Shown piece after piece: positions 4,963-27,315 of a stretch of DNA of 49,834 bases. The notes under the pieces are model-generated. The model saw only the letters and a program-made list of their open reading frames with translations, searched no databases and had not been told where the DNA came from. The stretch comes from Bdellovibrionales bacterium (lineage in GTDB: Bacteria > Bdellovibrionota > Bdellovibrionia > Bdellovibrionales > UBA1609). A program made the position numbers and the translations under genes. The number at the start of each line of letters is the position of its first letter. The stretch's first letter is position 1. The stretch lies in assembly GCA_020850475.1 (NCBI GenBank), contig JADZEO010000073.1, positions 1 through 49,834 of the forward strand, given 5' to 3'.

Positions 4963-5198
4963 TTTCCGGTTTGCTCCGCGTTGAGGACACTTTCATTTTC
5001 ATCCTTGCCCGGCTGCTTGCGGGATTTGGCATAAAAGGTCGTCCCGGGTTTTTGTCCCACCTTTTGCAAACGTTTTTCCACTTCCGGCCAGTCGCCCGAA
5101 GCATCGGCCTCCATGACAGTTTGTCGATCGATGTTGTAAATGACGGGCGCACAGGAACCGGCCAAGAGACAAATCAAACCAATCATTACTGTTCTCAT
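4959..5198 (-). CDS. Small lipoprotein coupled to AsmA-like and propeller/TPR genes
   Basis: This 79-residue protein has a short signal peptide with lipobox Leu-Ala-Gly-Ser-Cys near residue 16, then a charged, lysine-rich tail. It has no recognisable domain. Four-base overlaps at both ends (with the AsmA-like gene upstream and the PD40/TPR gene downstream) show that it is a real gene and co-translated. It may serve as the membrane anchor for the large soluble TPR protein made next; that role is inference from order and size. Confidence 0.75.
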   Translation of the reverse strand: MRTVMIGLICLLAGSCAPVIYNIDRQTVMEADASGDWPEVEKRLQKVGQKPGTTFYAKSRKQPGKDENESVLNAEQTGK

Positions 5199-7699: not shown

Positions 7700-7706
7700 C
7701 TCGAAG

Positions 7707-7712
7707 ATTATA
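7707..7712 (-). promoter_or_regulatory. Consensus -10 box directly before the AsmA-like gene
   Basis: TATAAT on the minus strand ends seven bases before the ATG at 7699. No good -35 lies 16-18 bases upstream and no ribosome site lies between box and ATG, so a transcript from here would begin at or next to the start codon (leaderless). It may also be a chance match. Confidence 0.35.
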
Positions 7713-7785
7713 AGGTGTGGTTGAGCAATGGGGCAGTGGATTTCGCCCGGGCCTTACCAATCTTGACGCGACCAACTTGCGCTGA

Positions 7786-8643
7786 CTAAGACCGCCCTTG
7801 GTCGAGGAGCTCAACAAACTCTCGCATGGTCGTGACCGAAACATCAGGGCTCGACGCCACTGAGGCCATTGCTCCGGCAATCCAAAATGACGGACGCGGT
7901 TTGAGCTGGCGTCCTGCGGTCGCAAGGTAAGACTCAAATTGATCCAAATTAGAAACAATCGGTGCCGTCCCAATTACCACAATCGAGGGACGCAAAGCTC
8001 GACAAATGTCGGCCAGCGCCTCAGCTGGAAGATTCGGTCCAAAATAGGCGGTGGGGTAGCCCCGCGCTTGGCTCAACTTCGAAGCCATTAAAATTCCCAA
8101 CTCATGCAGATCGCCCTCGGGCGTACAAAATCCCATGAGCGAAAGTCCGGAAGTGACCTCGGTCGCGCGAATGCGCACGATCTGGTCGCGCACCAGGGCG
8201 GTGACGGCATGCTCTTGCGCGACACTGAGTTGGTTTCTCTGCACCAGGTGCCCCACTTCGCGCATGAGCGGCGTAACGAGATCAACTAAAAATTCTTCCA
8301 CCCCTCGCCGCACGCGGTGATGATGAAGTTCATCACTCAACTCTTGCAGACGATACGCCGTCAACAGCGACAGGAGTTGATCTCGGTGGGCTTCCAGCGA
8401 AGGGCGATAACTCGGCAACACCTGAATGATTTGTTCATCCGTCATTTGACTGGCGCGCCGAATGGGGTGCCCTAAGGCCACCAACTCCTTGAGAGTCTTG
8501 AGGCGCTCCACCTCAGCTAAGGTGAAAATTCGCTCTCGGCCGTCGCGCGCGGGGCGAATCGCGCCGTAGCGCTTTTCCCAAGCCCTAATGGTAAAGGCCG
8601 TAAGTCCAGTGATCTGAGAAACCTGATTAATATCCAGCAGCAT
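7786..8643 (-). CDS. MerR-family regulator with cobalamin-binding-like domain (CarH/LitR type)
   Basis: Residues 3-70 are a MerR winged helix with the RAWEKRYG recognition-helix signature found in CarH/LitR regulators. Residues about 75-160 match the helical bundle that caps the cofactor, and about 165-260 the Rossmann-like B12 domain with a DLHELG motif (Asp178, His180, Gly183), where His would ligate cobalt. Glu144-His145 of the cap motif is present, but the Trp ten residues before it, which packs over adenosylcobalamin in CarH, is Val134. The SxL and GG motifs are also altered (GTAP, AGAM). The start at ATG 8643 is preferred to TTG 8652. It probably represses itself and the divergent lipocalin operon through the shared inverted repeat. 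Whether it still senses light or B12 is open. Confidence 0.85.
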   Translation of the reverse strand: MLLDINQVSQITGLTAFTIRAWEKRYGAIRPARDGRERIFTLAEVERLKTLKELVALGHPIRRASQMTDEQIIQVLPSYRPSLEAHRDQLLSLLTAYRLQELSDELHHHRVRRGVEEFLVDLVTPLMREVGHLVQRNQLSVAQEHAVTALVRDQIVRIRATEVTSGLSLMGFCTPEGDLHELGILMASKLSQARGYPTAYFGPNLPAEALADICRALRPSIVVIGTAPIVSNLDQFESYLATAGRQLKPRPSFWIAGAMASVASSPDVSVTTMREFVELLDQGRS

Positions 8644-8672
8644 AGAGCTCAATTATATCGAGTTTTCGCTAT

Positions 8673-8702
8673 TTTACAATACCCCCCATCACTTTTTGTC
8701 TA
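8673..8702 (-). promoter_or_regulatory. Promoter of the CarH/LitR-like regulator gene
   Basis: On the minus strand TAGACA (8702-8697) and TGTAAA (8678-8673) are separated by 18 bases. The -35 lies inside one arm of the inverted repeat, as expected for an autorepressed regulator. The predicted leader is about 23 bases. Confidence 0.5.
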
Positions 8703-8729
8703 GTCGAATACACTTTTTATTAGACAAAA
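8694..8729. promoter_or_regulatory. Operator candidate: 9-bp inverted repeat between divergent genes
   Basis: TTTTGTCTA at 8694-8702 and TAGACAAAA at 8721-8729 are perfect inverted copies separated by 18 bases. They sit between the MerR/B12 regulator and the lipocalin operon, and each arm contains the -35 (TAGACA) of the promoter reading outward. Binding of the regulator here would block both promoters. Confidence 0.65.
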
Positions 8730-8749
8730 TACCTTAGGGGTGGTAGTCT
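8721..8749 (+). promoter_or_regulatory. Promoter of the lipocalin operon
   Basis: TAGACA (8721-8726) and TAGTCT (8744-8749) are spaced 17 bases apart. The -35 overlaps the right operator arm. The -10 is a weak match, as is usual for repressed or activated promoters. The leader to ATG 8775 would be about 19 bases. Confidence 0.45.
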
Positions 8750-8774
8750 TATTAGTAACTTAGGAGAAACTCAA

Positions 8775-9317
8775 ATGAAACAACTTGCTAGCCTCTTCGT
8801 AACCCTGCTCGCCTCAACCGCTTGTGCTCACGCCACCTCGGTACGTAATGCTCCCCCCGCTCCCCTGGAAACCGTGTCGTTTGTCGATCTGCAAAGATAT
8901 ATAGGTAAGTGGTACGAGATCGCGAGCCTGCCCGCGCCCTTTCAAGACCACTGTGTCGGCTCGACCGCCGAGTATTCCCTCCGCCAAGACGGTAAGATCA
9001 ATGTGACCAACCGATGTTTCAACAAAAGCTTCGACGGGGACATCGACGAGGTCTCGGGAAAAGCTTGGATCGTCGACACCACCACCAACGCCAAGTTGAA
9101 GGTTCAATTTTTTTGGCCCTTCAGCGGTAACTACTGGGTCATTGATTTAGATCCCGAGTACGGCTGGGCGGTGGTCAGCGAACCGTCGCGCAAGTATTTG
9201 TGGATTCTCAATCGCCAACCCCGCATGGCCCAAGATGTTTACGATGGAATCATCAGTCGCCTTAACAATCAGGGTTTTGATCTGAGCGAACTCAAACTGA
9301 CCCCACAACAGGAGTAG
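8775..9317 (+). CDS. blc: Bacterial lipocalin (Blc-like)
   Basis: The 180-residue product has a signal peptide ending near Ser-Thr-Ala-Cys-Ala (a weak lipobox) and the lipocalin GxW signature in YIGKWYEIASLPAPFQ. Later motifs also match Blc: RCFNKSFDG, VQFFWPFSGNYWVIDLD and the C-terminal YLWILNRQPRM. Lipocalins of this kind bind lysophospholipids or fatty acids at the outer membrane and are induced in envelope stress. A good AGGAG site precedes the ATG. It is the first gene of a + operon (NUDIX, secreted protein, mini-ORF, SnoaL-like) divergent from a CarH/LitR-like regulator. Lipocalin genes are known members of LitR light-response regulons, which supports the regulatory link. Confidence 0.9.
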   Translation: MKQLASLFVTLLASTACAHATSVRNAPPAPLETVSFVDLQRYIGKWYEIASLPAPFQDHCVGSTAEYSLRQDGKINVTNRCFNKSFDGDIDEVSGKAWIVDTTTNAKLKVQFFWPFSGNYWVIDLDPEYGWAVVSEPSRKYLWILNRQPRMAQDVYDGIISRLNNQGFDLSELKLTPQQE

Positions 9318-9321
9318 TGAA

Positions 9322-9834
9322 GTGAAGCCGCAAGTGACAATTGGTGCCGGAGCCTTGGTCATCGAGCAGGAGCAAGTCTTGTTGGTTCAACCCAACTACG
9401 GGCCCGCTCGTGGCCAGTGGCTCCTCCCCGGCGGATACGTCGAAGTCGGGGAAACTCCCAGCGAAGGAGCGCTTCGCGAGTTGTGGGAAGAGACCGGACA
9501 AGTCGGCCGGGTCGAACGCCCGCTTTGCCTTCGCTTCCGTCGCAATCCGGCCGACATTTATTGGGTTTTCGTCGTGAATCGACTTCTGCAAACTCCCCTT
9601 CGAGTCCTGGACACGGAACTTCTGGATGCTCGCTTTTGGCCCCTGGCCGAGGCTTTGGAGTCAGACCAGGTGCGCCCGATGACCCGCTATATTCTTGAGC
9701 TTGCAACTTCTCCGCAGCGGGCGCAACTCCCCCCGCTCCCTCAGGAGTTTCGCAATTCTCATGAGATTTTTTGCTTCGGTAACCACCCAGCCGCGACGGA
9801 TTGGACTCGCGAAGCAGCCAAGGCGGTGAGCTAA
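9322..9834 (+). CDS. NUDIX hydrolase
   Basis: The 170-residue protein contains a full NUDIX box, GYVEVGETPSEGALRELWEE followed by TG, at about residues 33-55. The Glu residues of the REx2EE core that bind Mg2+ are intact. The family hydrolyses nucleoside diphosphates linked to another group. The N-terminal pattern (IGAGALVIEQEQVLLVQP) resembles ADP-ribose or NADH pyrophosphatase-like members, but the substrate cannot be read from sequence. It uses a GTG start with GGAG about seven bases upstream and begins four bases after the lipocalin stop. Having no signal peptide, it is cytoplasmic, unlike its exported operon neighbours. Confidence 0.9.
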   Translation: MKPQVTIGAGALVIEQEQVLLVQPNYGPARGQWLLPGGYVEVGETPSEGALRELWEETGQVGRVERPLCLRFRRNPADIYWVFVVNRLLQTPLRVLDTELLDARFWPLAEALESDQVRPMTRYILELATSPQRAQLPPLPQEFRNSHEIFCFGNHPAATDWTREAAKAVS

Positions 9835-9835
9835 G

Positions 9836-10579
9836 ATGAATTTACTAGTTGTTGCGACTTTAACGTTGGGATTCTTCTTCACCACCTGGGCCTCGGCTGA
9901 CTCTTATGTGGTTGGCCACGCCTACACCAGTAAAACCAAGCGCCAACTCGCTTACCGCGAGTATCACGACATTACTCAAAGCCAGGGGCGCATCCAACGA
10001 GCAAAGACAACTTACAAAAATCCCGACGGTACGACCATCGCCGAGTTAAGCTGTGATTATTCGAAACAACTTTTTTTGCCCGACTTTGAGTTTACCGATC
10101 ACCGCAGTGGCTATTGGGAAAAAGTCGTCGTCGGAACCAACGAAATCAAAGTCGAACTGCGCGAGAATCGCAACGCCAAAATCCAAGCGACGACCTTTAA
10201 ACCCCGTGATAACTGGAGCGCCAGCCAAGGGCTCAATCAATTCATAACCAGCCATCTGCAACGCGCGGTAAAGGGTGAGGATGTGGTCACGACCTTCTTG
10301 CTGCCAGCCCATCTGACAACTGTGAAAATGCTGGTCACGGGCTCGACTCCCGACGGCCAACTGGCCCAACTCGAAATCAAAGTGAAAAATCCGATCTTGC
10401 GCTTGTTTGCGCCGCGAATTGAGCTGGTTTATGAACTGCAAACTCAACGGCTGCTCACCTACTTCGGAAACTCCAACATCTTTACCGCCTCCGGCGACAA
10501 GCAGACCGTCTTCATCGATTACGACTATCCAGTGATGACCGCCGCAACCACCCCAGCGCCCTCAAGAGGAGGACCATGA
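9836..10579 (+). CDS. Secreted protein of the lipocalin operon, unknown function
   Basis: The product has 247 residues with a signal peptide (cut near Ala-Ser-Ala, residues 18-21). The mature part is rich in beta strands (GHAYTSKTKRQLAYREYH, then alternating TYK/ELS/EIKV stretches). I recognise no family. It begins one base after the NUDIX stop and its own stop overlaps an 18-codon ORF, so it is part of the operon. Possible roles are lipid or pigment handling next to the lipocalin, suggested only by context. Confidence 0.75.
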   Translation: MNLLVVATLTLGFFFTTWASADSYVVGHAYTSKTKRQLAYREYHDITQSQGRIQRAKTTYKNPDGTTIAELSCDYSKQLFLPDFEFTDHRSGYWEKVVVGTNEIKVELRENRNAKIQATTFKPRDNWSASQGLNQFITSHLQRAVKGEDVVTTFLLPAHLTTVKMLVTGSTPDGQLAQLEIKVKNPILRLFAPRIELVYELQTQRLLTYFGNSNIFTASGDKQTVFIDYDYPVMTAATTPAPSRGGP

Positions 10580-10632
10580 AAATTGCCTCGGCAAGTCGTC
10601 CCCTCAGGGCCACACCAAAGGAGTCGTCATGA
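10576..10632 (+). CDS. 18-codon mini-ORF coupling two operon genes
   Basis: A start codon at 10576 follows a near-perfect GAGGAGG site and encodes MKIASASRPLRATPKESS. Its ATG overlaps the stop of the preceding secreted-protein gene, and its TGA overlaps the ATG of the SnoaL-like gene at 10629. It is too short for a known domain. It is either a coupling peptide that carries ribosomes to the next gene or the remnant of a longer gene. The basic, Ser/Pro-rich content is unremarkable. Confidence 0.4.
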   Translation: MKIASASRPLRATPKESS

Positions 10633-11132
10633 TCCGCACTTATTTGCTCCTTGTTCCACTCTTAGTGAGTTTGCACTTTTCAATCCCACTTGCGTTTGGA
10701 GAAGACATGAGCCAAATGGACCGAATCAAAAAAGCTTTCAACGAAGTACGAGCCGACAACCTTCATATTTTGGACGGCTTCTACGCCCCCGACACCCAGT
10801 TTGTCGATCCCCTGGGAGTTCACCAAGGACTCGACGCGGTTAAGAAGTACTACGCCAATCTCTATACCAACGTAACGGAGATCCACTTTGACTTTCTAGA
10901 CACCTATAGCGACGGCAACCGCCACGTCTTAGTGTGGAAGATGTTTTTGCGGGCCAAGGGCCTCAACAATGGCGAGGTCATGACCCTCGATGGCACTTCC
11001 ATTATCCGTTTTGATGAGCGCAACTTGGTGGTCTACCATCGCGACTACTTTGACATGGGCGAATTTATCTACGAGAAAGTTCCCGTCCTCAGATGGATCA
11101 TTGGCAAAGTGAAGCAGCGCTTAAAGCCCTAA
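10629..11132 (+). CDS. SnoaL-like (NTF2-fold) exported protein
   Basis: The 167-residue protein has a signal peptide (about residues 1-24) and then an NTF2/SnoaL-like domain: an N-terminal helix (MDRIKKAFNEV), DGFYAPDTQFVDPLG, the loop GLDAVKKYYANLY, and strands ending in YHRDYFDMGEF. The fold forms a small conical pocket for hydrophobic ligands and may or may not be catalytic. SnoaL-like genes occur with LitR regulators in light-response clusters, matching the lipocalin and the MerR/B12 regulator here. GGAG lies eight bases before the ATG, inside the mini-ORF. It is the last gene of the operon, ending two bases before a convergent gene. Confidence 0.8.
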   Translation: MIRTYLLLVPLLVSLHFSIPLAFGEDMSQMDRIKKAFNEVRADNLHILDGFYAPDTQFVDPLGVHQGLDAVKKYYANLYTNVTEIHFDFLDTYSDGNRHVLVWKMFLRAKGLNNGEVMTLDGTSIIRFDERNLVVYHRDYFDMGEFIYEKVPVLRWIIGKVKQRLKP

Positions 11133-11134
11133 CC

Positions 11135-11878
11135 TCACTTGCAAACGATATAGCTGTAGTATTTCTCTTCGCCAGCTTCAACCGCTGGAAGCTCGCGCAT
11201 CACCCCAGGAACCTTGGACGCATCAACGTGGGTGGCGGCCTTGCGGACGATAAATCGGTATTCAAAGCCTTGAATCTTCCCCTGGAAGAAGTAAATCACC
11301 ACGGCCGCATCCCGCATTCCCGAGCTATTCTCCAAGTGCGGCAACTTAAAGGTCACAAAGTAGTCGGCATTTGAAAATAATTTGGCGCGCGGAATCGAAC
11401 CACCGAATTTTTTTGCTTCATCCTCAGAGTACTCAGCTTTGATTGGTCCGTAGCTCAGGCGCACCGGGCGCATGGGCTCAGCCCGCTTGTCCTGATACTC
11501 GAAAAACCCGGTTTCGCGCTCTTCAGTGGCATTGGACAAAATTCCGCGGGAGACCATCGATGGCAACGCCGCCAGCCGCACATTGTGCATACTCTGCCTG
11601 CGCACTTCGTAAAGAGCGAACATCCACTCTGAAATACCGGGGTCGGTTTTATAAGTCGTAAGCCCGCAGCGCGGAGATTCAAAGCGAGGATCCGCAGGTT
11701 CCGCCACATTTAACACCTTGCCGTCTAAGGTAAAGGCCGACCCAAAAAACTCAAGCTTATCGCCCGGGAAAAAGAATTCTTCAGGCGAGGGGCCAGGACC
11801 TTCGGCCGCGACTGCGGTTCCGAAGATCAACCATGAGCTCAATAATAGACCCACAAGGGCAGCGCTATTTTTTGGCAT
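11135..11878 (-). CDS. Secreted protein at the end of the gliding-type operon
   Basis: The start at 11878 is chosen because AGGAG precedes it by seven bases and the protein then opens with a signal peptide ending at Ala-Val-Ala-Ala-Glu. The 247-residue product has no family I recognise. It contains two cysteines (PRCGLTTY and a C-terminal VCK) that could pair. Its start overlaps the end of the CglB-like gene by 14 bases, which places it in the same transcript and suggests an accessory role at the outer membrane near that adhesin-type lipoprotein. Confidence 0.7.
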   Translation of the reverse strand: MPKNSAALVGLLLSSWLIFGTAVAAEGPGPSPEEFFFPGDKLEFFGSAFTLDGKVLNVAEPADPRFESPRCGLTTYKTDPGISEWMFALYEVRRQSMHNVRLAALPSMVSRGILSNATEERETGFFEYQDKRAEPMRPVRLSYGPIKAEYSEDEAKKFGGSIPRAKLFSNADYFVTFKLPHLENSSGMRDAAVVIYFFQGKIQGFEYRFIVRKAATHVDASKVPGVMRELPAVEAGEEKYYSYIVCK

Positions 11879-12914
11879 GTTCTCGCTCCTGAGGATAAAT
11901 CGCCCGCTCATAAGAAATTGTCAGCTCACGGTCAAGATTGTCATCTGGCCACTCGACTTCGCGACCAATATTGATCGACTTGGTCTTAGGATCATAGGTC
12001 CAACCCTTAGTGGGATGATTGGGGATCACAATGTTACCATAGCGAACAACCATGCGCTCAGGATCTGGCGCCTTATCCAAAGTGATTCGGCTACCCACTT
12101 TATCTACAATGTCTTCAGCGATCCCGGCCAGCTCGAGTCCAAAATCCGGTGAGCAAAGGTTAAACGAACTTCGTCGCTGCCCGTTACCAAAGGCCATTGT
12201 TAAGAACTGCTCAATGCGCACGGGCTTTTCATTCTCTCCACCGTCACGTGAGCACTTCATGGTGTCATCCGAAGGCACAATCGCCCCGTACAGCAAAACC
12301 CTGTCAGGATCGCCGCCCTTAAGATTAACTAATTCCGCATACAAACCCGCTGGATCGACGTCACTTTGATCTTCAGCATCGGTCACTATCACCACGGCCA
12401 AATAAGACCCACGACGAGAAAACTTCAACAGGTCATTCTTAACAATGGGCAAAATCTGGGGAAGGGCTTTTTCCGTCGCATCCCCACTTGTTCCCACAAT
12501 CATGCTCTCGGCCAAAACCTCAAGACCGTTGGGCGTGCGGGTCGTGACGAAGGAGTTCGTCGGTCCGAGAAATTTCCCTCGATGCTGTTCCGACGTCGTC
12601 GTCACCCCAATACGATAATCCAGGATCACATTCTGTTTAAGGGCCAACACAAACTGAGAAGCATTCTTTTTTAAATTTTCTTGATGGGTGCTCATACTAC
12701 CCGAGTCATCAATCACAAAAAGGATTTCGACCATGGGCTTGCGGATTTCCATGCCGTTCGGCTTGGCCTGTACGACCTTCTCTAACGACTGATCCGGTAA
12801 GGGCCGCAACATCGGCGTTGGTTCATTGTCACTGCAACCCACCACCGCCGCGACAGCCAACAGGCTCACCCATCTCAGAGTTTGATTGAGGGAGAAATTA
12901 ATTGGCTTTTTCAT
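11865..12914 (-). CDS. VWA-domain lipoprotein, CglB-like surface adhesin
   Basis: The 349-residue product is a lipoprotein (lipobox Val-Val-Gly-Cys, Cys27) with a von Willebrand A domain from about residue 60. The metal-ion-dependent adhesion site is intact: Asp69-x-Ser71-x-Ser73 in VIDDSGSM, plus a TDAEDQSD segment where a further Asp is expected. In Myxococcus, CglB is an outer-membrane lipoprotein with an integrin-like VWA domain that couples the gliding motor to the ground. Position in an operon with ExbB/ExbD, TPR, AgmX and beta-barrel genes supports a CglB-like role. It overlaps the upstream TPR gene by 17 bases and has GGAG before its ATG. The symbol is not assigned because orthology was not tested. 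Confidence 0.85.
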   Translation of the reverse strand: MKKPINFSLNQTLRWVSLLAVAAVVGCSDNEPTPMLRPLPDQSLEKVVQAKPNGMEIRKPMVEILFVIDDSGSMSTHQENLKKNASQFVLALKQNVILDYRIGVTTTSEQHRGKFLGPTNSFVTTRTPNGLEVLAESMIVGTSGDATEKALPQILPIVKNDLLKFSRRGSYLAVVIVTDAEDQSDVDPAGLYAELVNLKGGDPDRVLLYGAIVPSDDTMKCSRDGGENEKPVRIEQFLTMAFGNGQRRSSFNLCSPDFGLELAGIAEDIVDKVGSRITLDKAPDPERMVVRYGNIVIPNHPTKGWTYDPKTKSINIGREVEWPDDNLDRELTISYERAIYPQEREHAKK

Positions 12915-14493
12915 CTTTTTCTCCTCTGAGGCTTGCGCATTTCAACTTCATGTCCACCCGATAATTTGCCAGCTCATCAAACCAAAGTTCCTTTTCGGAT
13001 TTACTTTTGAACACTAGGGCGTCTTTGGCAGAACTGCCCGTCTGACCTTTGCGAGTTCCCATGCTCTTGGGGCTCTCACCTTTGGCTAAGCGCTTGGCAG
13101 CACTGTCAACCCGTTGGATAATTTCAACTTCCAACACCTGCATCTTGGTTAATACATCGTTGAGCTCCTGGAGCTCGCGTTTAGCCAGGAACTTAATCCG
13201 TTGACCAATTTCCGTGGTCCGTACTGCCTGTCGCGCGGCGATCACCTCAGATAACCACTGATCTTGAGGTTGATTGAAGAGCTTCTTACCGCTCCCGGCT
13301 TCCGCCACTAAGTCGGCATGTGAACGTGACAACTGACGGATGGTCTCATCGCGCAAAGTTTTGCGTGGCAAGTGCCCGACGACTCGGCTGATACGCTCAA
13401 TCCGCAACGCTGATTGATTGAAAACATCCATAACGGGTCCGAGATCAATCGCCCCGTTTTCAGCCTTCATCAGCTGTTGCGCGCGCCCTTTGAACTTCTC
13501 TTTAAAAATCATCAGGGCTTTGACGGCTTCGGCATAGTCACAAACGTAGAGTTGGGCCAAGCCGCGCAAATAGTAAACCTCAGGGCCGACCAGAAAACCA
13601 AAGTCAGTTGCCATGAAGGTATTGGTTTGGGCGATCACGTTCTCAGATTGCCCGCTCCGCAAGTAAATCCATCCCAATTCTTCTTGCGCCTCAAACCAGT
13701 AATAAGAGTTATTGGGAACTTTTTGATAATACTGGGCCGCGACGTCGAGAAATCCCTTTTTATAGAGCAATCGGGCGGCGGTGAGATTCATCAAATCTTT
13801 TGAAACGGGATTGTCGCGATACTGCATCAAAGAACTGAGCAACTTAGCTGACTCTGGCACATCGCCTTTGAGAGCCAAAGCATTGGCCAGCTGCCACTGC
13901 AACCAAGCGCGCTCCGCCGTATCAGGAACGGTCTCGGTGATCATTGCTTCAATTGCGGCAGTATCGGTTTTGGCCCGCAAATGTTGAGCCGTCGCCCGCA
14001 CTTGAGCCGCTCCACCAAAGACCTTGGTCCACTCAGGATGCCATTGCACCTTGACCGACTTCCAAACCTTGGCTGAACCGGGTGCGAGTTTTTTCCACTC
14101 GGACATAATGGCGGGCGACAGTTCTCCGGGCTTTTCAACGCCGAACAGAGTTTCGATGCCGCTGATTTCAAAGCCATTGGCATACAACACCAAGCCCAAC
14201 AAGGCTTGACCATTGGGAGACTTCGCAAACTCAGAACCGGAAATTGTTTTGTTCCACTCCCGCAATGCCTCAGGCCATTTGCTATTGGCAAAGGCCCCGG
14301 TAAAGGGAGCTGCAGTGGCAACGAGCCCGCGGCCCATCATCGCCTCAAGCATGCCCTGTCGACTCGCTTGCACGGCCGCCAGTTCCTGAGAGCTTGACTC
14401 GCCCAAGATCTTTCCTAAGTCTTCGGCCGCGCCGGCGGAAAACGAAGGCCCGAGTGACAGCATTAAGATTGTACAAACCGTGCGCCTTAACAT
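12898..14493 (-). CDS. Periplasmic TPR protein of the gliding-type machine
   Basis: I chose ATG 14493 because AAGGAG lies about eight bases upstream; the codons at 14502 and 14499 are too close to it. The 531-residue protein has a signal peptide ending near Ser-Ala-Gly-Ala-Ala-Glu and then helix-turn-helix repeats (LLYKKGFLDVAAQYYQKV, ELGWIYLRSGQSENVIAQ, YYLRGLAQLYVCDYAEAVKA) typical of TPRs. The last quarter is predicted coiled and basic. In Myxococcus several periplasmic TPR proteins (GltC, GltD, GltE) link the inner-membrane motor to outer-membrane parts; this is a candidate for one of them. It sits between a beta-barrel gene and the CglB-like gene. Confidence 0.8.
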   Translation of the reverse strand: MLRRTVCTILMLSLGPSFSAGAAEDLGKILGESSSQELAAVQASRQGMLEAMMGRGLVATAAPFTGAFANSKWPEALREWNKTISGSEFAKSPNGQALLGLVLYANGFEISGIETLFGVEKPGELSPAIMSEWKKLAPGSAKVWKSVKVQWHPEWTKVFGGAAQVRATAQHLRAKTDTAAIEAMITETVPDTAERAWLQWQLANALALKGDVPESAKLLSSLMQYRDNPVSKDLMNLTAARLLYKKGFLDVAAQYYQKVPNNSYYWFEAQEELGWIYLRSGQSENVIAQTNTFMATDFGFLVGPEVYYLRGLAQLYVCDYAEAVKALMIFKEKFKGRAQQLMKAENGAIDLGPVMDVFNQSALRIERISRVVGHLPRKTLRDETIRQLSRSHADLVAEAGSGKKLFNQPQDQWLSEVIAARQAVRTTEIGQRIKFLAKRELQELNDVLTKMQVLEVEIIQRVDSAAKRLAKGESPKSMGTRKGQTGSSAKDALVFKSKSEKELWFDELANYRVDMKLKCASLRGEKDEKAN

Positions 14494-14505
14494 GGCCATC
14501 ACTCC

Positions 14506-15204
14506 TTAAAGCATATACCCCAACGACAAACCGAGAACCGTGAGATTCATGGTGTGAGTTCCGGTAAATCGTTCTGACTCATACGACTGACGACGCAATT
14601 CTAAACGCCCCGTCATGTGCTGCGAGAACCACACTCCCAAACCAGCTCCATAAGTGATGGTGTCGCGCTCTTTTGAAGCGAGCTCCATCACCCCGGCTCC
14701 GGCCGTGAGATACAAGTCGAACTGAGAAATTCCTAAATCATAGAGACTCATCTTACCGTAGATCGGGTACCAGTTGACCGTCGCTAGGTAGCCTTGACGA
14801 GGTTCATCGAGATCCGGCACCAGCGGCTCCGTCAATTTAGGCTGAAGCGCATTATTGATGAGCGCCTTGGCTTCTGAGGTGAGCGAGTTAAAGGCGTAAT
14901 GATAATTGAGTCCCACCGACCAACGGTGATTAATGTGAAAGTGATAGGTCAGCCCCACGGTGTCGGTCGACAAGTAGGCATCACCACCCACAAAACTCGC
15001 AACTTGAGGAGAAAACTCATGACGAAAGCGCCGTCCGACCGTGCGCCCTTGAACCACCTTAATGTCAGATTCCGGGTGCAGCGCTTTGGCCTTTTCGTAA
15101 AGTTCCTTGTTACCACCCAAAGAGTCAAAGCCCTCCAGAAGGTCGCTTGCCTGCGCGGACCAGACACTAAAAATGAGAGTTGATAGAAGTAATAAGTGTT
15201 TCAT
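14506..15204 (-). CDS. Outer-membrane beta-barrel protein (GltA/GltB-like)
   Basis: The start at ATG 15204 has AGGAG seven bases away, better than the ATG at 15210. The 232-residue protein has a signal peptide ending at Ala-Gln-Ala-Ser. Residues 60 onward alternate polar and hydrophobic with frequent aromatic ends (LTYHFHINHRWSVGLNYHYAF, GQGL-type turns), closing with LTVLGLSLGYML, a C-terminal strand. This fits the myxobacterial-type outer-membrane beta-barrel family to which GltA and GltB belong. It lies between the lipoprotein and TPR genes of the operon, so it likely forms the outer-membrane platform. Confidence 0.8.
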   Translation of the reverse strand: MKHLLLLSTLIFSVWSAQASDLLEGFDSLGGNKELYEKAKALHPESDIKVVQGRTVGRRFRHEFSPQVASFVGGDAYLSTDTVGLTYHFHINHRWSVGLNYHYAFNSLTSEAKALINNALQPKLTEPLVPDLDEPRQGYLATVNWYPIYGKMSLYDLGISQFDLYLTAGAGVMELASKERDTITYGAGLGVWFSQHMTGRLELRRQSYESERFTGTHTMNLTVLGLSLGYML

Positions 15205-15213
15205 AGTCATCTC

Positions 15214-16524
15214 CTATTGGCCGCCGCCAACATACACTGTATTGTCAGCTCTGGTCCTGGTCGCATCGTGTCCGCCGCCCACCAATTCACCGAGTTCATT
15301 CTCGATTGGCGGTTGCCCAATTTTTTGCACTAGCAGTCGCCGCTTGAAGGTGACATCCTTGGAGTACTCATCCTTGTCGACCGTAGTTTTGCTCACCACT
15401 TTAAATTCCAATTCGATAATCTTAGGCAAAGTAAATTGCGGGTTCGACTTCGGAGTCCAAGCGATCTGGCAGTTTTGCATCGTGCTCTCAGTCACGCTGC
15501 AGGTAACCAGAAGACCGGGATACTTTTTCCAGTCCGTCACCCACTCAACCGAAACCTGTCCCTCAAAGCGGGGATCAAAGACCCTAAAGGCAAAGTAGTT
15601 CTCGCGGTTTTCCGCAAAAATAACTGACTGTTCGGCCATCCAGCTCGTCATCGGATCAACCAAAGTCGTTCTCACTTGCACTACCTGTTTGGTCGACATG
15701 GAAGGGACCAAGTGACGATTGATCGCTTGAAGGCCAAAGTGGTAGGCGTCTTGATTTCGGGTGAGGCCAAATTCAGCAGCCAAATTGATTTTGACTTTAA
15801 AAATCCAAATGGTGGGATCTTTTTCGTCCCGGCGAGGACTGTCTTGAATCTCCACAAAGGAACTTAAGCTTGAAGAATTGTTGGTCTCCACCACCCGAAG
15901 AACCGGCGCTTTCCCGGTCAGCGGCTGGAGAGTCGAAACTGACTCAGGGTCTTTCACCCGAACCTCAAATTCAAAGCTTTCACCTTCACGCACACCCGCT
16001 GGCGGCATTTCGCCAACTTGAACGATCTCAGGGCCCACATCGGCGCGAAAAACCACCATCTCGATTTCCTGACGACGAGACAACATCGATTTGCCTCGCT
16101 TCGCTGCCAAAACGGCAGTAACCCGAGTCCGTCGCACCGACTGATCTCCCACCCAACCTTGGGGCGGAGTCCACTTTACGGTAAGCTCGTGCTTATCTGC
16201 CGAAGGTGTCACAACCACAGAGTCCAATCGGCGGTCGGCACCTTCGAGTTCCAGATAGTAATCGGCATCGGGCAATAGCACGCGGCTCCCGATCTTGATT
16301 TCCTTCTCTTCGCCTTCAACAAACTCGTAGAAATTATCGGCGTCGACTTGCAGAGAGTCTTCCGGAAGAACGTCCGCTGCTGGCGAATCAGTCTTTTTCT
16401 CCGGCGGAATTGCTCGCTTCACACTGTCGGGCTGACCACTGAGGGGATCTTGATCTTTAAATCCCGAGTTGCACCCAAACAGGAGTGCGGTCATCGCAAC
16501 TAAAACCATAATTTGACGGCTCAT
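15214..16524 (-). CDS. Large lipoprotein with Ig/cadherin-like segments, gliding-type operon
   Basis: The start at 16524 is preferred to upstream in-frame codons because GGAG precedes it and the protein then begins with a lipoprotein signal (lipobox Leu-Phe-Gly-Cys, Cys18). The 436-residue product has a Pro/Lys/Asp-rich linker and then beta-rich segments. One (PPAGVREGESFEFEVRVKDP) looks like an Ig- or cadherin-like repeat boundary. It is probably an outer-membrane lipoprotein lying with the adjacent beta-barrel, comparable in position to GltK-type parts of Myxococcus, though similarity to any named protein is not established. The gap to the AgmX-like gene is 20 bases. Confidence 0.75.
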   Translation of the reverse strand: MSRQIMVLVAMTALLFGCNSGFKDQDPLSGQPDSVKRAIPPEKKTDSPAADVLPEDSLQVDADNFYEFVEGEEKEIKIGSRVLLPDADYYLELEGADRRLDSVVVTPSADKHELTVKWTPPQGWVGDQSVRRTRVTAVLAAKRGKSMLSRRQEIEMVVFRADVGPEIVQVGEMPPAGVREGESFEFEVRVKDPESVSTLQPLTGKAPVLRVVETNNSSSLSSFVEIQDSPRRDEKDPTIWIFKVKINLAAEFGLTRNQDAYHFGLQAINRHLVPSMSTKQVVQVRTTLVDPMTSWMAEQSVIFAENRENYFAFRVFDPRFEGQVSVEWVTDWKKYPGLLVTCSVTESTMQNCQIAWTPKSNPQFTLPKIIELEFKVVSKTTVDKDEYSKDVTFKRRLLVQKIGQPPIENELGELVGGGHDATRTRADNTVYVGGGQ

Positions 16525-16544
16525 AGCAGACTCCTTCATCTCCT

Positions 16545-17681
16545 TTAGCCCTGACCTTTCCGCTTCAACATATACGGATACGAAATCTTGACTTCCATTC
16601 CCCCTTTGGGAATCGGAAACTGCCAAGTCTTCAATCTCTGCAGAATGCAATTTTCAATAATCGTCGAGTTCAATGTCGTATTAGCAATGCCCGCTTGACT
16701 GACCAGTCCGTCAGATCCGATTGCAAAGCGCACCACCACCCGGCCGTTCAGTCCAGGATCGGCTTGCAAACCCTGCTCATAGCAAAAGAGCACTTGTCCC
16801 TTGTTGGCTTCCATCACGCGCGCAACTTCGTCGCGATCCAGACCGCCATCGATAATGGCTTCGGTGCCGAGCGGAATGGTGCTGTTGCCAGCCGAGCCAG
16901 TCATGGCCAGCTTGCCATAGCCCGCTTGACCGCCACCTTTTCCTTTGGTGCCGTAACCGCCACCACCGTTCATGTTGCCACCCTCACCCAGAGGGGCCGC
17001 AACCAGACCTTTGCCGTAGAGGCTCGTTTGAACACCACCGCTGCCGCCGGTGCCACCAAGACCAATTCCCGCCGTGGTTTGAGCGGCACCCAAGTTGAGG
17101 CCACCGCGCTGCTTACTTTTGTTGAGACTTCCTAAAACTCCCAAAGCACCCATACGGCTAACCGCATTGGGATTTTTCTTGGTCAAGGTATCGGTCGTGC
17201 GCAAGTCAAAGCTCTTAGCTTTAAAACGCACCGTCTCGGGCGGTTTGGGCGGAGCCCGTTTGACAACTTCAACAACGTGCTCTTTAAGTTCCTCTTCCAA
17301 TTTAACTCGCGGAGCTGACACAAAATTGGCTCCAACGATAATCACGATCTGCAAAATTCCAACGATCGCCAAACACCAGTTCCAGGTTTCATTTGAATCG
17401 GGAAGCTCAGGCTCGTTGTGATCAAGAGTCTGTTCCTGAGCCGCGGCGCGAACGCGACTGCCGTTGCCAAATTCAAAGGCGCCGGTCTTTAAGATGTCGC
17501 TGCTAATGGGGCCAAGCACTTGATAGTCTTCGCCTTCGTCCCCATATTGGTCCGGTTGCGAAGTCACTTCGATTCGGCCGGAGTCGGTCAGGCGAACAAC
17601 CGTCAATTGAACCGCTCCATCCCAAGGAATGGTGCGAGCCACTTCACCAAAATTATTCTCAATAACTAAAGGCTTACTCAC
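16545..17681 (-). CDS. AgmX/GltG-GltJ-type energy transducer with TonB-like C-terminus
   Basis: The 378-residue protein has a cytoplasmic N-terminal part (1-100), one membrane segment (about 101-122), a basic Pro-rich stretch (VVKRAPPKPPETV), a Gly-rich flexible region (about 190-275) and a C-terminal domain (285-375) with the AgmX/PglI pattern: LFCYEQGLQ, LNGRVVVRFAI, a second Cys (ENC) and WQFPIPKGG. In Myxococcus, GltG and GltJ share this plan and carry force from the AglRQS motor across the periplasm. The start is GTG with AGGAG eight bases upstream. The N-terminal part resembles a degenerate FHA-like domain only weakly. Confidence 0.85.
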   Translation of the reverse strand: MSKPLVIENNFGEVARTIPWDGAVQLTVVRLTDSGRIEVTSQPDQYGDEGEDYQVLGPISSDILKTGAFEFGNGSRVRAAAQEQTLDHNEPELPDSNETWNWCLAIVGILQIVIIVGANFVSAPRVKLEEELKEHVVEVVKRAPPKPPETVRFKAKSFDLRTTDTLTKKNPNAVSRMGALGVLGSLNKSKQRGGLNLGAAQTTAGIGLGGTGGSGGVQTSLYGKGLVAAPLGEGGNMNGGGGYGTKGKGGGQAGYGKLAMTGSAGNSTIPLGTEAIIDGGLDRDEVARVMEANKGQVLFCYEQGLQADPGLNGRVVVRFAIGSDGLVSQAGIANTTLNSTIIENCILQRLKTWQFPIPKGGMEVKISYPYMLKRKGQG

Positions 17682-17692
17682 AACCCATACTC

Positions 17693-17932
17693 CTAATTTT
17701 GCTCCATCGAGTCTTCGATGCGATCATCAAAGTCTCGACGAATCTTCAAAATCTTGCCAAAGACCTTTTCCTCTTCCACTGTCACCACGGACTCATTCGA
17801 GAAGTGATACCGTCCCTGAATTAACAGGTCTTCAAAACTCAAATCCGTTCCGGTGGATTTTTTGGGCTTTTCTTGGGCCCCCGCCACCGCGGTCAAAAGG
17901 ACTACTAACGAGGCCAATAATAGCTTCATCAT
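17693..17932 (-). CDS. Small secreted protein of the gliding-type operon
   Basis: The 79-residue product has a signal peptide (cut near Val-Ala-Gly-Ala-Gln) and a charged mature part of about 58 residues with no recognised family. It has no cysteine or membrane segment after cleavage. The start overlaps the TPR gene stop in an ATGA junction, and the AgmX-like gene follows 11 bases after its stop, so it is a true operon member. It may be a small periplasmic subunit linking its two neighbours; that is inferred from position. Confidence 0.7.
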   Translation of the reverse strand: MMKLLLASLVVLLTAVAGAQEKPKKSTGTDLSFEDLLIQGRYHFSNESVVTVEEEKVFGKILKIRRDFDDRIEDSMEQN

Positions 17933-20900
17933 TTGCCACCCTGCCCGGCACTTGGCGCCGCAGAGCTTGATGCTCCCTTAGCCAAGCGTCCCTCAAGATA
18001 AGTCACCATCACGGCATTGCCGCTTTGCTTTTCAACTTCTAACAAGAGCTTTAACTTTTCTGAGTTCATCGGGTCTGCCCGCAAATCGTTGCGCGCCTTT
18101 ACCACTGCCGAGTTTGCTACCCCGCTCTCATTCTGAGCTTGCAGCGAACCGATTTCAGATTGCCATTGAGCGCGCAAGGTATCCGGGGCCACTGCGGCGA
18201 CGATCTCAACCTGCGAACGAAGGAGTGCGCGAACCGCACCGGACTCAGCTTTAACCATCGCTGGTACTTGCTGAGCAACGGCTCCGTTACTCCAAAACTC
18301 CTGAGCCTTGGCGCCGGCTTCTTGCGCCCGTTCCTGATGCGGAGCTGCCTGTTGACCGAGGAGCTCTAGGTACTGGCGTTGCTCGTCGTCACTGAGGCCC
18401 GCCGGCATCGGCAGTGCCAGAATGTTGTCGTAGAGACGCTTGGACTCCACCGCCAACACTTGCAGGGTTGCGGCCTGAGCTAACCAGTCTTTGGCTTCAA
18501 GGGCTTCGGCGGTGAGCTTTTCCCAGTCACCTAACATTTTAATGCGCGCTTTGAGCGTTTTGCCCATCGCTGCCTGGGATTTAACATCAATTTGATGACC
18601 TTGCAGTTCAGCCATCGATTTGCTGACTCGTCCTAATATATATTGGCGCTTGAGCACTTTGCCGCTGGGAGTTTCAGCAAGCTTGCCGTCTTTGGCGACT
18701 TTAGCGATCAGCTTGTCGCTCGGCTTGGCGGCAACCACTTCAAGATAAGTTCGCGCCAGGACTTCGGCGTCACGAGCAAGGACTTTTTCGAAGCGTCCCA
18801 AATCCTTCTCCGGCTCCGGAGAGGTCGTAACCAACCGGGAAGCGATGGCTGAATCACGACTCGGGTCCTGAGAAACCTTTAGATACTGTTGCAAATAAGG
18901 CCGAGAGTCCTTTTCTGCCAAATCCGCGAACATTGCTAAACGCAGTTGGCGGTCGGTTGGCGAGAGTCCGGCCATCTTCATTTTTTCGCTGAAACTCAAA
19001 GCTTGACCAAAATCCAATTTCAACTCAGAAACCCAAACTACTTTTCCAGCGGCGAATTCACGATCCTCGTCGGTGAGATCTTTAAGCGCCAAGATCGCCT
19101 TCGCACTCGACTCAACTTCATCCCACTTGTTCATCTTTTCAGCGAGCAGGGCACGGTTGCGATAAGTGCGCGCTTTGTCTGCATCGCTCGCCCCTTCCAA
19201 GTTAACTTTGGCCATCTTAGCCCAAGCAGCATCGAGTTGGGCCTGGTCGCCGCTGGACTGGGCCAAGCTCACGGCTTGGTTCAACTGAGCTGCGCGGGTA
19301 GCCTTGGCGAATTCCTGTGCTCCATCTTTGAACACGCTGGAAAACTCGGCGGCCCATTGCTCAATTCGGGCATCATCTTTGAGCAGCACCAAGGTATCGA
19401 GCGCCAGGTCAGCTGCTTGCCGTTTAATTTTCTGATTTTGCAATCCCGGCACCAATGCCAAGGCGCGCAGGGCTTCGGCCGCTTGCGGGTACTCGCCGCT
19501 TTCGTAAATCATGTAGGCGAGCTGATATTGAACCTGAAACTTGTGAACCTCGTCTTTCGACATCGCCAGAAACTGGGCGTAGGCTTTGCGCATCAGGCTC
19601 TTGTCTTTGCTCTGTTCGGCCGCCTCAATTTGGCTGAGGAGCGATACTTCCATTTTGTCGTGGGCTTCTTTGCGAGCCTTGGCGTCTTGAGCGGCCGCAG
19701 CTTCCGCACTGGCAAACAACTGACTGGCCCGGGCGAACAGCGTCTCAGCTTCGACAAATTGTTTTTGGCCTTTGGCGACTAAGCCAGCAAACAAGTGCAT
19801 ATCCGGATCGTTGGTAAAGATCTTAAGATAGGCTTGGTAGGTCGCCAAGAGCGCAGGATTGGACTTTTCTTTTTCGACTTTATTCCAGTTAACCAAAAAG
19901 TTTTTTAGTCGTGATTTGATTTCCGCGCAAACGGCATCGTCGGGTTTCTGGCAGTCCGGTGTGGCAGTCCAAGTTTGGAGTGCTTGGTGGTAGTCTTTGA
20001 TCCCCTGTTCCGCCAACTGCGAGTTCATTTCCATTTGAGCCATCAGAGTCAGGCCAGTGAGGCGCTCTTTGGGGCTGGTGTCTTGACTCAACACAAATCG
20101 CCAGACTTCGATGGCCGGCGAAATTTTACCCATGCGCTCCAGCTCCTTAGCTAAGTAAGCCGTGTTCGAGCGAGCTGCTGACTTGGGACTTAACTCAAAC
20201 AACAACTGGGCCTGAGCCAGCGTAATGGTCTGCCGACCGAAGAAGGTCGCCAAATCCCGCGAAACCTCCGCCTGAAACTCTTCATCAGGCTTCACCACTC
20301 CCGGAGCCATCCCGCGAGTGAGGAGCCGCGGAGATTTGAGAATTTCAATCATCGCGGCAGATGACTTTTGATCATCGCCGAGATTAAAAAAGCACCAGGC
20401 ACGGCGATAGGCCGCGAGCCCGGCGCCGGTGGCCTTGTCAATTGGTATGACTTTTTCGTAATGGGGAATGGCATTGCGGAAGTCACCTTGGCGGAAATAG
20501 ATCTCACCCATCGATAATTCCGCTTCGGCAATCGCCAGCGGATCTTGGCTGGATTTAATGATAACTGTGTAGGCCTCGATCGCCTTTTTCTTTTCTCCCA
20601 CCAACTCATAAAGGTGACCGAGCTGAGTGGTGATGACTCCTTTGTCGACGTCACTGTTGACCTGAAGAATCTGTTCATAAAGAGCAATCGCTTGACGTCG
20701 GTCGGGAGTTCCAGCCTCGCACTGAGTGCAACCCTTTTCGAGTTCGGCCATAGAATCTAAGCGCGCCCGTTCAGCGTAAAGGTCCGCTAGCCGCAACATG
20801 ATGTCTCGGCGCGAAGGATCATCCTTCGGAAGACGAGCTAGCACGTTCTGCATTTTGGTAATCAGCACGGATTCTGTGCTGGGCTCACCTGCAAGCAATG

Positions 20901-24143: not shown

Positions 24144-25628
24144 CTAAAGATTATTAATCGCGCGCCGAACTTTTTCGGCGCGTTGGGGATCGAGCTTGGA
24201 GTTAAAGGCCGCAGCCCGCTCGGCGCAATCGGCCACTTCGCAACGCTCGCAGGTTTCGGCAGTTTCCCGAATCGGAATCGCCGGATCCCGCAAATATTGA
24301 ATGGTGTCCTCGGCCTTTTTGTTGATCAAAACTCCCACTGTGACCGCGGCCGCATCGCCCTGGGGCAGATCTTTTTCAAACGCCATGGACCACGCCAGGT
24401 AGTCGGTGTCGGAACCCCGAAAACGCGAAAGCTGGCAACCGACCAAGAATTTTTCCTGCGGAGAGTCCTTTAATTGTTCCAGGAGCTGGGTCGTGAGCCA
24501 TCTTCGGCAGTAGTGCTCACGTCCAGTAATCTTGTGAGGGGTGTGCCGCTCGGCTAAGTGAAGTTCGCGCACCACCTGAAAATGATCCTCTTCGCCGCTG
24601 TAATCCAAGCGCAAAAAGAACAAATGCTCAACGCCCAGGCCTCTTGGTAAAAGCTGGGTCAGACGATGAAAGACACTTTCGACGGGGCAGGCATAGGAAA
24701 GAATCCACTCCCGCATCGCCTGGCGGTCAAAGGTCGATTGGCTAAACAGTTCCTTAAGACGCTCGACAAACTGCCGCTCTGGAACCAACAAACCGCTGGC
24801 AAAGTAGGACGCCGAAAAGTGATTCAACAATTGCTGAAAGGAATCCAGCGACTCGATCATGCTGCTAAACGGGCGCTCGGTGATTTCCAAAACGCGAAAG
24901 CCGAGCTCGCGCGCCAAAATCAGCGCCCGCTCTCTTGCTCCCAAGGCCGGATGAATCAACAAGGTGCCGCCCACGGCCTTTGGCTTAAAACAATAATAGA
25001 GATGTTTCAGGTGCGGATCGGCTTGGCCAAAATCACAGGTTTCGACTTCAATGCGAAATTTTTTGCGCAAGAGCTCCTGAAACTGATTCACCACCCGGTC
25101 TGGGCCGCCGTCCACCTCTAGGTCAAACTCCTCGCGAAAGGCTTCGACTTTCTCTTCGATGGCCGGGAAAAAGTTTTGGTTTAAATCCAGGTAAGCTCGC
25201 AACGTCGCATAGTAGAACTCATCAATAGAAATGTTGTGCGAGCGAGCCAATTCGAGGAGCGTCCCGATTAAGGCTCCCATTTTGCGAGGACGTTCGGAGA
25301 GCAACTCATAAACCACCTGGGAAGGAATCCCAAAAAGCTCAAAGGGCAATCCGGTCAGGATGTTTTTTTCGAGGAGCTGACTGATCAAATTAAGTTCGCG
25401 CTTGAGTTTGACCGAAACCAAGTCTTCGTAGGACTCGCCGAGGGCCTTGGCGATCACAATAATCTTGTCGCTCTTAGGATATTTTTTGCCCTTCTCGATT
25501 TCATTCAAGTAGGACGGCGACATCCCGGTTTGCTCGGCTAGCTCCTTTAAGGACAAACCCTTATCCAAGCGCAGCCCACGCATCTTCATGCCAAAAATGT
25601 ACTTAAGTGTGTCCTGATCTAAAAGCAT
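24144..25628 (-). CDS. XRE/ScfR-type regulator with degenerate ImmA/IrrE domain
   Basis: Residues 8-70 are a classical helix-turn-helix (LSLKELAEQTGMSPSYLNEI). The following region matches short-chain-fatty-acid-type regulators (RamB, PccR, ScfR): an IrrE-like domain near 200-250 and a C-terminal domain with a Cys cluster, Cys460-x2-Cys463-x4-Cys468 (CERCEVADC). The zinc protease motif HExxH is replaced by RELGF (240-244), so no peptidase activity is expected and the domain likely senses a ligand. Such regulators control acyl-CoA or glyoxylate/propionate genes. No such target is adjacent; the neighbours are a barrel and the TrhP gene. Length 494 fits the family. Confidence 0.85.
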   Translation of the reverse strand: MLLDQDTLKYIFGMKMRGLRLDKGLSLKELAEQTGMSPSYLNEIEKGKKYPKSDKIIVIAKALGESYEDLVSVKLKRELNLISQLLEKNILTGLPFELFGIPSQVVYELLSERPRKMGALIGTLLELARSHNISIDEFYYATLRAYLDLNQNFFPAIEEKVEAFREEFDLEVDGGPDRVVNQFQELLRKKFRIEVETCDFGQADPHLKHLYYCFKPKAVGGTLLIHPALGARERALILARELGFRVLEITERPFSSMIESLDSFQQLLNHFSASYFASGLLVPERQFVERLKELFSQSTFDRQAMREWILSYACPVESVFHRLTQLLPRGLGVEHLFFLRLDYSGEEDHFQVVRELHLAERHTPHKITGREHYCRRWLTTQLLEQLKDSPQEKFLVGCQLSRFRGSDTDYLAWSMAFEKDLPQGDAAAVTVGVLINKKAEDTIQYLRDPAIPIRETAETCERCEVADCAERAAAFNSKLDPQRAEKVRRAINNL

Positions 25629-25737
25629 GGCGTGACATATAGACCTTGGCAGGCACCAATTTCAAATTATTGGGTATATAGTGCGTCGCATTGACAAAGA
25701 ACTTGTCCCTCTCCCACCCCTCGGGTTAGATAGGCCC

Positions 25738-27009
25738 ATGCAACTCTCAACCCTTCCTGAACTCCTTGCTCCCGCTGGCTCGCTGGAAAAGCTCCGATAC
25801 GCCTATGCCTTTGGGGCTGATGCGGCCTACGCGGGGATCCCCTTTTTCTCGCTACGCGCGCGTGAAAATGAGTTTTCCCTAGAAGAACTTCGCCAGGGGT
25901 TGGATTTAGCCCGCTCGATGGGTCGTCGACTGTATCTGACGGCCAATATCTTTGCTCGCAACCGGAAGATTCAACCGTTTTACAGTCACCTTGATCAATG
26001 GGCCGAACTTAAGCCCGACGCTCTGATTATGAGTGATCCAGGCTTGATGTTAATTGTTCGTGAGCGCCATCCCGAAATCCCGATTCACCTTTCAGTGCAA
26101 GCCAATTGCATGAACTGGCAGGGGGTTCGTTTTTGGGCCCAGCAGGGAGTGCAACGGATTATCCTGAGTCGCGAACTCACCCTCGAAGAAATCCGCACAA
26201 TTAAAGACAAAGTCCCCGAAGTGGAACTGGAGTCCTTTGTCCACGGTGCAATTTGCATCGCTTACTCGGGTCGTTGTCTCTTGTCGTCGTACATGAGTTA
26301 CCGCGACGCCAACCAAGGGGTGTGTGACAACTCCTGCCGCGAAAAGTTCCACGTCTACAAAACCCCCTCGACCGACGAGAATTTTTTTGTTGAAGACCTA
26401 CGCAACAAGGGTGAGTTCTATCGGGTGGACGAAGATGAAAATGGCACGTTCATCATGAACGCCAAAGACCTGCGCCTGATTGAGCATCTCAAGGAAATCA
26501 TGCAAGCCGGAGTGAGCTCGCTCAAGATTGAAGGCCGAACGAAGTCGATTTATTATGTTTCGATCGTGACTCGTGCTTATCGACAAGCGCTCAACGACCT
26601 TGCGGCAGGTCGGGACGTGGATTCGCGCTGGATCACCGAGCTCGACAAAGTGGCCAACCGTGGCTACCACAAGGGCTTCTTGATGGGTGAGCCTCAAGCC
26701 GACGACCATAACTATAAAGTGGGAACCACGCGCCACTCCAAGCAACGCTTTGGGGGATTGGTTCGTCCCGAAGAGCGCGTGTATGACGGCTGGCTACCCA
26801 TTGAAGTCAAAGGGCCAGTGTCAGTGGGTGACCGCTGTGAGCTCATTCACGCCGACGGCACTTCGGATTGGCTTACGATTGAAGCGATTCGCACTTCACG
26901 TGGTAAGGAACTCGCCAAAGCCAATCCCGGTATTGGTACCTTTCATGTTCCCGCCAGTATCGCGCCTCGCGACCACTCGATCCTCAGCGTGCAGCTCGAA
27001 AGCAACTAA
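25738..27009 (+). CDS. trhP: U32-family tRNA hydroxylase TrhP (YegQ)
   Basis: The 423-residue product matches the YegQ/TrhP branch of the U32 family, an enzyme that adds a hydroxyl at C5 of U34 in the tRNA wobble position. Family hallmarks are PAGSLEKLRYAYAFGADAAY at the N-terminus, FVHGAICIAYSGRC and GVCDNSC near residues 170-200, and IEGRTKSIYYV. Cys173, Cys180, Cys196 and Cys200 are placed to bind the iron-sulfur cluster. The start at ATG 25738 gives the E. coli-like N-terminus; an upstream GTG at 25681 lacks support. The gene ends nine bases before a stand-alone chorismate mutase gene. In E. coli the hydroxylation needs prephenate, the product of that enzyme. Confidence 0.9.
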   Translation: MQLSTLPELLAPAGSLEKLRYAYAFGADAAYAGIPFFSLRARENEFSLEELRQGLDLARSMGRRLYLTANIFARNRKIQPFYSHLDQWAELKPDALIMSDPGLMLIVRERHPEIPIHLSVQANCMNWQGVRFWAQQGVQRIILSRELTLEEIRTIKDKVPEVELESFVHGAICIAYSGRCLLSSYMSYRDANQGVCDNSCREKFHVYKTPSTDENFFVEDLRNKGEFYRVDEDENGTFIMNAKDLRLIEHLKEIMQAGVSSLKIEGRTKSIYYVSIVTRAYRQALNDLAAGRDVDSRWITELDKVANRGYHKGFLMGEPQADDHNYKVGTTRHSKQRFGGLVRPEERVYDGWLPIEVKGPVSVGDRCELIHADGTSDWLTIEAIRTSRGKELAKANPGIGTFHVPASIAPRDHSILSVQLESN

Positions 27010-27018
27010 GGAGAGTGC

Positions 27019-27315
27019 GTGACTCGGCCATCCGACCCAAAGGAACTTGCTCAACTCCGTCGACAAATGGATTTTTTGAACCAACAACTGACCCGCATTT
27101 TGACCGAACGTCTCGACTTGGCCGAGCAGATTTCCCAGGTTAAGCAGGCTCAAGGACTACCGCTCCACGACCCAGACAGAGAGCGCCAAATGTTGGAAAC
27201 CTCGCTGGCCGCCGTCGTAGAACCCAACAAGAGCCCCGCCATAAAACGGATGCTCGAGTCGATATTTGCTTTCACCTTGGATTATTTGAAAAACAACTGG
27301 CGCCGGAATCAGTAA
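27019..27315 (+). CDS. AroQ-type chorismate mutase (stand-alone)
   Basis: This 98-residue helical protein carries the AroQ pattern: LRRQMDFLNQQL at the N-terminus, then ERLDLAEQISQVK, and HDPDRERQML. The Arg, Lys, Asp and Arg-Glu residues that bind chorismate in AroQ enzymes are in place. It converts chorismate to prephenate for Tyr/Phe synthesis. It starts with GTG after AAGGAG and lies nine bases downstream of trhP in the same direction, so they are co-transcribed. This pairing is meaningful because prephenate is needed for U34 hydroxylation and also feeds carboxy-SAM formation in the cmo5U pathway. No signal peptide, so it is cytoplasmic. Confidence 0.9.
   Translation: MTRPSDPKELAQLRRQMDFLNQQLTRILTERLDLAEQISQVKQAQGLPLHDPDRERQMLETSLAAVVEPNKSPAIKRMLESIFAFTLDYLKNNWRRNQ

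Follow-up and report, generated by a model that had tools for sequence, protein, structure and literature searches.

A TrhP-type hydroxylase gene followed by a chorismate mutase gene

The window, by which we mean the whole stretch of 49,834 nucleotides analyzed here, derives from a Bdellovibrionales genome (G000) rated 100% complete. It carries a gene for a TrhP-type U32 hydroxylase and, after an intergenic gap of 9 nt, a gene for a small stand-alone chorismate mutase (CM) of the AroQ fold (Table 1). An earlier note on this DNA had placed trhP and a small mutase in one unit with a nine-base gap, and this reading is confirmed by the coordinates, the profile matches, and the structural model. 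Based on profile searches, the two are the sole U32 (PF01136) gene and the sole CM_2 gene of the genome. The Shine-Dalgarno motif of the CM gene overlaps the trhP stop codon, which is the layout expected for translational coupling of the two genes.

Table 1. Positions of the gene pair and its neighboring features in the window
Feature	Position	Strand	Details
Divergent HTH regulator gene	24144–25628	-	weak M78/RamB-like part; upstream of trhP
TrhP-type U32 hydroxylase gene	25738–27009	+	423 aa; ATG start; TAA stop at 27007–27009; further GTG upstream at 25681
Shine-Dalgarno motif AAGGAG	27008–27013	+	overlaps trhP stop codon; 5 nt before CM start; read in sequence
Stand-alone AroQ-fold CM gene	27019–27315	+	98 aa; GTG start

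The upstream protein matched the Pfam Peptidase_U32 family at 298 bits. Among the NCBIfam models, TrhP was the best (494.6 bits, slightly below its cut-off of 534), with UbiU at 192, and the protein reads as a divergent TrhP orthologue. It shares 195 of 423 residues (46% identity) with Escherichia coli TrhP and, in the alignment to that protein, retains the equivalents of E162 and of the Fe-S cysteines C170, C177, C193, and C197. E. coli TrhP depends on E162, C170, and C177 and, in vivo, on prephenate; a pheA tyrA mutant regains ho5U34 when supplied with a PheA that has CM activity only (PMC6599085).

The downstream protein matched Pfam CM_2 at 56 bits, against a cut-off of 27. Its AF2 model (pLDDT 94.3) adopts the three-helix AroQ fold, with helices at residues 7–44, 52–64, and 69–96, and its best Foldseek matches were solved chorismate mutases (5j6f, 2d8e, and 5go2).

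Aromatic pathway of the window genome

We analyzed the surroundings of prephenate metabolism in the window genome using profile searches. Chorismate synthase is present, while no AroH, prephenate dehydratase (PDT), prephenate dehydrogenase (PDH), or CmoA was found; PheC-type dehydratases lay outside these searches. AroH-type CMs were found in none of the 21 genomes searched, including G000 and the genome G068 described below. Because the PDT search was positive in 14 of 14 control genomes and the PDH search in 13 of 14, an insensitive search is an unlikely cause of the absence of these two enzymes. With PDT, PDH, and CmoA absent, the U32 protein is the only known prephenate user detected in the window genome. 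Ordinary phenylalanine or tyrosine synthesis by the window CM was therefore rejected, since the genome has neither PDT nor PDH. External phenylalanine is also required in a published metabolic model of Bdellovibrio bacteriovorus (PMC7529429).

The earlier note had also considered that prephenate from this mutase feeds carboxy-SAM for cmo5U. We rejected this role for the window genome because it has no CmoA; of the 144 genomes of the class, a single one gave a CmoA match above the cut-off.

Linkage of chorismate mutase and U32 genes across genomes

The relatives detected in named genomes belong to Bdellovibrionales and Oligoflexia MAGs. Profile searches of 144 genomes of the class detected CM in 61 and U32 in 57 above the cut-off. 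Among the 127 genomes without PDT/PDH, 45 encoded both CM and U32, 78 encoded neither, one encoded only CM, and three only U32 (Fisher p = 1e-29, with relatedness of the genomes ignored). The earlier note had named random pairing across genomes as the outcome that would speak against its proposal; the pairing is non-random. In two of the three genomes with U32 only, the contig ends beside the U32 gene, on the side on which the CM would be expected, and the third, G068, is a real exception. Both-present and both-absent genomes occur side by side in six genera; CM and U32 have therefore been gained or lost in concert several times.

The linkage is also visible in gene position. A U32 gene is located no more than 4 kb away from 48 of the 53 stand-alone CMs. 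These 48 are spread over 21 genera, a count that serves as a rough correction for kinship in a sample from one phylum that consists partly of MAGs and of mutually related genomes. Four arrangements were counted. In 22 of the 144 class genomes, the CM directly follows trhP on the same strand. Another 26 CMs lie beside genes for long RlhA-like U32 proteins (U32 plus DUF3656, the domain make-up of E. coli RlhA), preceding them on the same strand in 8 cases and being convergent in 16 and divergent in 2. Neighboring reading frames overlap by 4 nt in 7 of the 23 trhP-CM pairs inspected and in the CM-RlhA-like gene pairs of G064 and G060, and an extra trhP-CM pair was found outside the class set (G201, on the same contig as L004). 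The remaining five stand-alone CMs comprise three in genomes with PDT/PDH, one in G036, and one isolated in G026. In Bdellovibrio-type bacteria that are apparently without the known phenylalanine and tyrosine enzymes, the small CM is thus kept almost only beside RNA-hydroxylating enzymes.

Four of the first ten trhP relatives had no adjacent CM. In all four genomes, however, a CM is encoded at another site, either fused to an aromatic-pathway domain or linked to RlhA, and these loci were rejected as counter-examples since another CM is encoded in each genome. The CM tree was poorly resolved; because its well-supported branches force at least three switches of U32 partner, the link of the CM is, as judged from this tree, to U32 enzymes as such and not to one inherited gene order. 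A literature search, which most subscription papers lay outside, found no description of the trhP-CM pairing, and the earlier note had likewise known of none.

These distributions bear on the explanation that the CM is an ordinary enzyme of amino acid biosynthesis whose place beside trhP is an accident of operon layout. The protein does have the fold and the main residues of a CM, and in 12 relatives the CM is fused to a phenylalanine/tyrosine-pathway domain and probably works in this manner. However, the window genome lacks PDT, PDH, and any other CM, and the adjacency repeats in 21 genera, in two U32 subfamilies, and in different gene orders. We therefore strongly disfavor this explanation and regard it as very improbable for the window.

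Several further loci were noted. In G068 (L116, L079), neither CM_2 nor AroH was detected, although TrhP, chorismate synthase, and an authentic CmoA are encoded; it may encode an unrecognised chorismate mutase. In G026 (genus g30, Bdellovibrio), a stand-alone CM without Gln88 (G026:C3:217739-217960, L187) does not adjoin a U32 gene, and a long U32 gene is located elsewhere in the genome. Conserved, very divergent CM-like genes (L151-L171 and L173-L176, e.g., G247:C17:67546-67728) occur in f18, the second large family of the phylum, and encode proteins of 130–160 aa retaining the Arg/Lys set and not the usual Gln88. In the three loci read, such genes (142 aa) lie just before cmk and not beside U32, and the host genomes mostly keep several U32 genes.

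Active site of the U32-linked chorismate mutases

The window CM retains R14, R31, K42, and R54, corresponding to R11, R28, K39, and R51 of E. coli, while the equivalent of Gln88 is Leu. This Leu falls in a gap-free helix 3 in the main alignment and is reliable there, a second alignment having a gap at the position. Across 48 aligned U32-linked CMs, R11, R28, and K39 (E. coli numbering) are retained in all and R51 in 47, and these Arg/Lys residues are the most conserved positions of a protein that otherwise drifts. Position 88, occupied in E. coli by Gln in PheA and by Glu in TyrA, has lost both residues in 46 of the 48: Gln is found in only 2 and Asp in 1, the others being L, A, K, M, P, and further residues. 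All 23 comparison CMs (16 in the main alignment, two of them E. coli proteins, plus 7 that do not belong to the class) have Gln or Glu. CMs tied to phenylalanine and tyrosine enzymes retain this residue, unlike the U32-linked CMs, which constitute a class of CMs without the usual catalytic glutamine.

Q88 mutants of the E. coli chorismate mutase are badly impaired, and for this reason the window protein could be a non-catalytic relic. A further explanation gives it no role in prephenate formation at all, either as an RNA-binding or structural partner of the U32 protein or as an isochorismate-pyruvate lyase. The fast evolution of the CM, with only about 25% identity between pairs compared with 46–62% for TrhP, would agree with such a role, and PchB structures do appear as weak matches in the profile comparison of the window CM. 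However, CM structures scored far above PchB (2e-18 versus 3e-5), the four active-site Arg/Lys residues are the most conserved while the rest drifts, and, when U32 is present, the presence of the CM is tied to the absence of another CM. We consider it highly unlikely that the protein has no connection to prephenate.

Another possibility is that the CM-like protein is only part of a catalyst. As a subunit with an incomplete active site, it would bind chorismate or prephenate but would require a complex with the U32 protein to become active or to pass on its ligand. A precedent is the CM of Mycobacterium tuberculosis (MtCM) with its DAHP synthase: MtCM also lacks a Gln88 equivalent, which demonstrates that CM activity is possible in this state, and on its own it reaches <1% of the usual activity, which its partner raises >100-fold (PMC7762937). 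The loss of Gln88 while the other ligand-binding residues stay, together with the apparent tight translational coupling of trhP and the CM gene, is consistent with this arrangement. Opposed to it, position 88 holds many different residues (L, A, K, M, P), a pattern that points to relaxed selection more than to a newly formed shared site, and the CMs linked to long U32 genes are convergent with their neighbor in 16 genomes and hence not always co-translated. An AF2 model in which TrhP and the CM were joined as one in-frame read-through chain yielded no measure of an interface and does not decide the matter. An incomplete subunit of this type is in our view rather unlikely. A similarly low probability is given to its more specific form, in which the U32 hydroxylase would complete or activate the incomplete site of the CM, such that a complex that both makes and uses prephenate would generate an unstable hydroxyl donor directly at the RNA-modifying enzyme.

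Probable role in prephenate supply

The explanation we favor, and hold to be likely, is that the protein is a chorismate mutase of low flux whose prephenate goes exclusively to U32 RNA hydroxylases, with CM activity, prephenate delivery, and RNA targets predicted from sequence comparison. The CM would turn chorismate into prephenate for the co-encoded, prephenate-dependent U32 hydroxylase, which would form ho5U34 of tRNA in the case of TrhP and ho5C2501 of 23S rRNA in the case of the RlhA-like U32 enzymes of relatives. These lineages retain the shikimate pathway as far as chorismate and are without the known PDT and PDH. Because phenylalanine and tyrosine are probably taken from prey or the environment, the former aromatic-pathway CM would survive only in the presence of a U32 enzyme that continues to require prephenate, suggesting that it now serves solely to provide RNA hydroxylases with this metabolite.

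A dedicated supply may also account for the altered active site. Since RNA modification would need little prephenate, selection on CM turnover may have been relaxed and Gln/Glu88 lost, whereas the catalytic lysine and the arginines that bind the carboxylates have stayed in place. Assuming 100 copies of the enzyme, 20–100 µM chorismate, and a kcat/Km of 500 per M per s, matching that of the inefficient CM domain of B. subtilis (PMC5526877), a weak CM would produce roughly 3,600–18,000 prephenate molecules per hour. As this output is about the order of the assumed demand of about 20,000 tRNA positions modified per generation, a weak CM could, on these assumed values, suffice for tRNA modification.

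Some observations count against a CM dedicated to U32: G068 has TrhP and CmoA without a detectable CM, the CM of G026 lies away from U32, and four genomes hold an aromatic CM together with a trhP-CM pair. The earlier note's reading is in part upheld. Its core, a small mutase dedicated to TrhP, agrees with the non-random pairing and has more behind it than the note claimed, as the window genome has this CM alone and neither PDT nor PDH, and the link also reaches RlhA-like U32 enzymes. The cmo5U part fails for this genome, the loss of Gln88 was beyond what the note could see, and local delivery of the metabolite is a prediction.

Prephenate is usually taught as an amino acid precursor, whereas comparative genomics here points to a CM kept only for RNA hydroxylation. 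If true, this would provide independent, evolution-based support for prephenate as a needed substrate of U32 hydroxylases, and it would offer a simple organism in which prephenate can be tested as the direct oxygen donor, free of amino acid side effects. For annotation, a chorismate mutase in such genomes should not be taken to imply phenylalanine or tyrosine synthesis.

Comparison with known systems

One of the closest known systems is the E. coli TrhP/RlhA pathway (PMC6599085), whose U32 enzyme has the same E162, C170, and C177 and needs prephenate. In E. coli, however, prephenate comes from the bifunctional PheA and TyrA, whereas the window has a stand-alone CM in the U32 operon, with no amino acid branch or CmoA detected in the genome. 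MtCM (AroQdelta, Rv0948c) is likewise a small three-helix AroQ CM without a Gln88 equivalent (PMC7762937). It differs in that its catalytic Lys is replaced by Arg, its partner is DAHP synthase, and it serves amino acid synthesis, while the window CM retains the Lys and has a U32 RNA hydroxylase as its neighbor.

In the closest solved folds of the Foldseek search, the CM domain forms part of a fusion with DAHP synthase (B. subtilis AroA(G), Geobacillus, and Thermus thermophilus). Those domains function in the shikimate pathway or regulate it, and the B. subtilis domain keeps the glutamine (Gln86, PMC5526877).

Use of prephenate for nucleic acid modification outside amino acid synthesis is shared with phage CmoA-CmoX (PMC12783734), although that system makes carboxy-SAM for DNA and has no U32 enzyme. 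A cluster resembling it was observed in G036 (L117, G036:C4:68000-78000, 3228-5994), where a stand-alone CM that lacks Gln88 is flanked on one side by a divergent DAHP synthase and on the other by a double methyltransferase of 491 aa with a CmoA-like C-terminal half, followed by a putative asparagine-synthase-like ORF. This cluster looks like a dedicated prephenate supply for carboxy-SAM.
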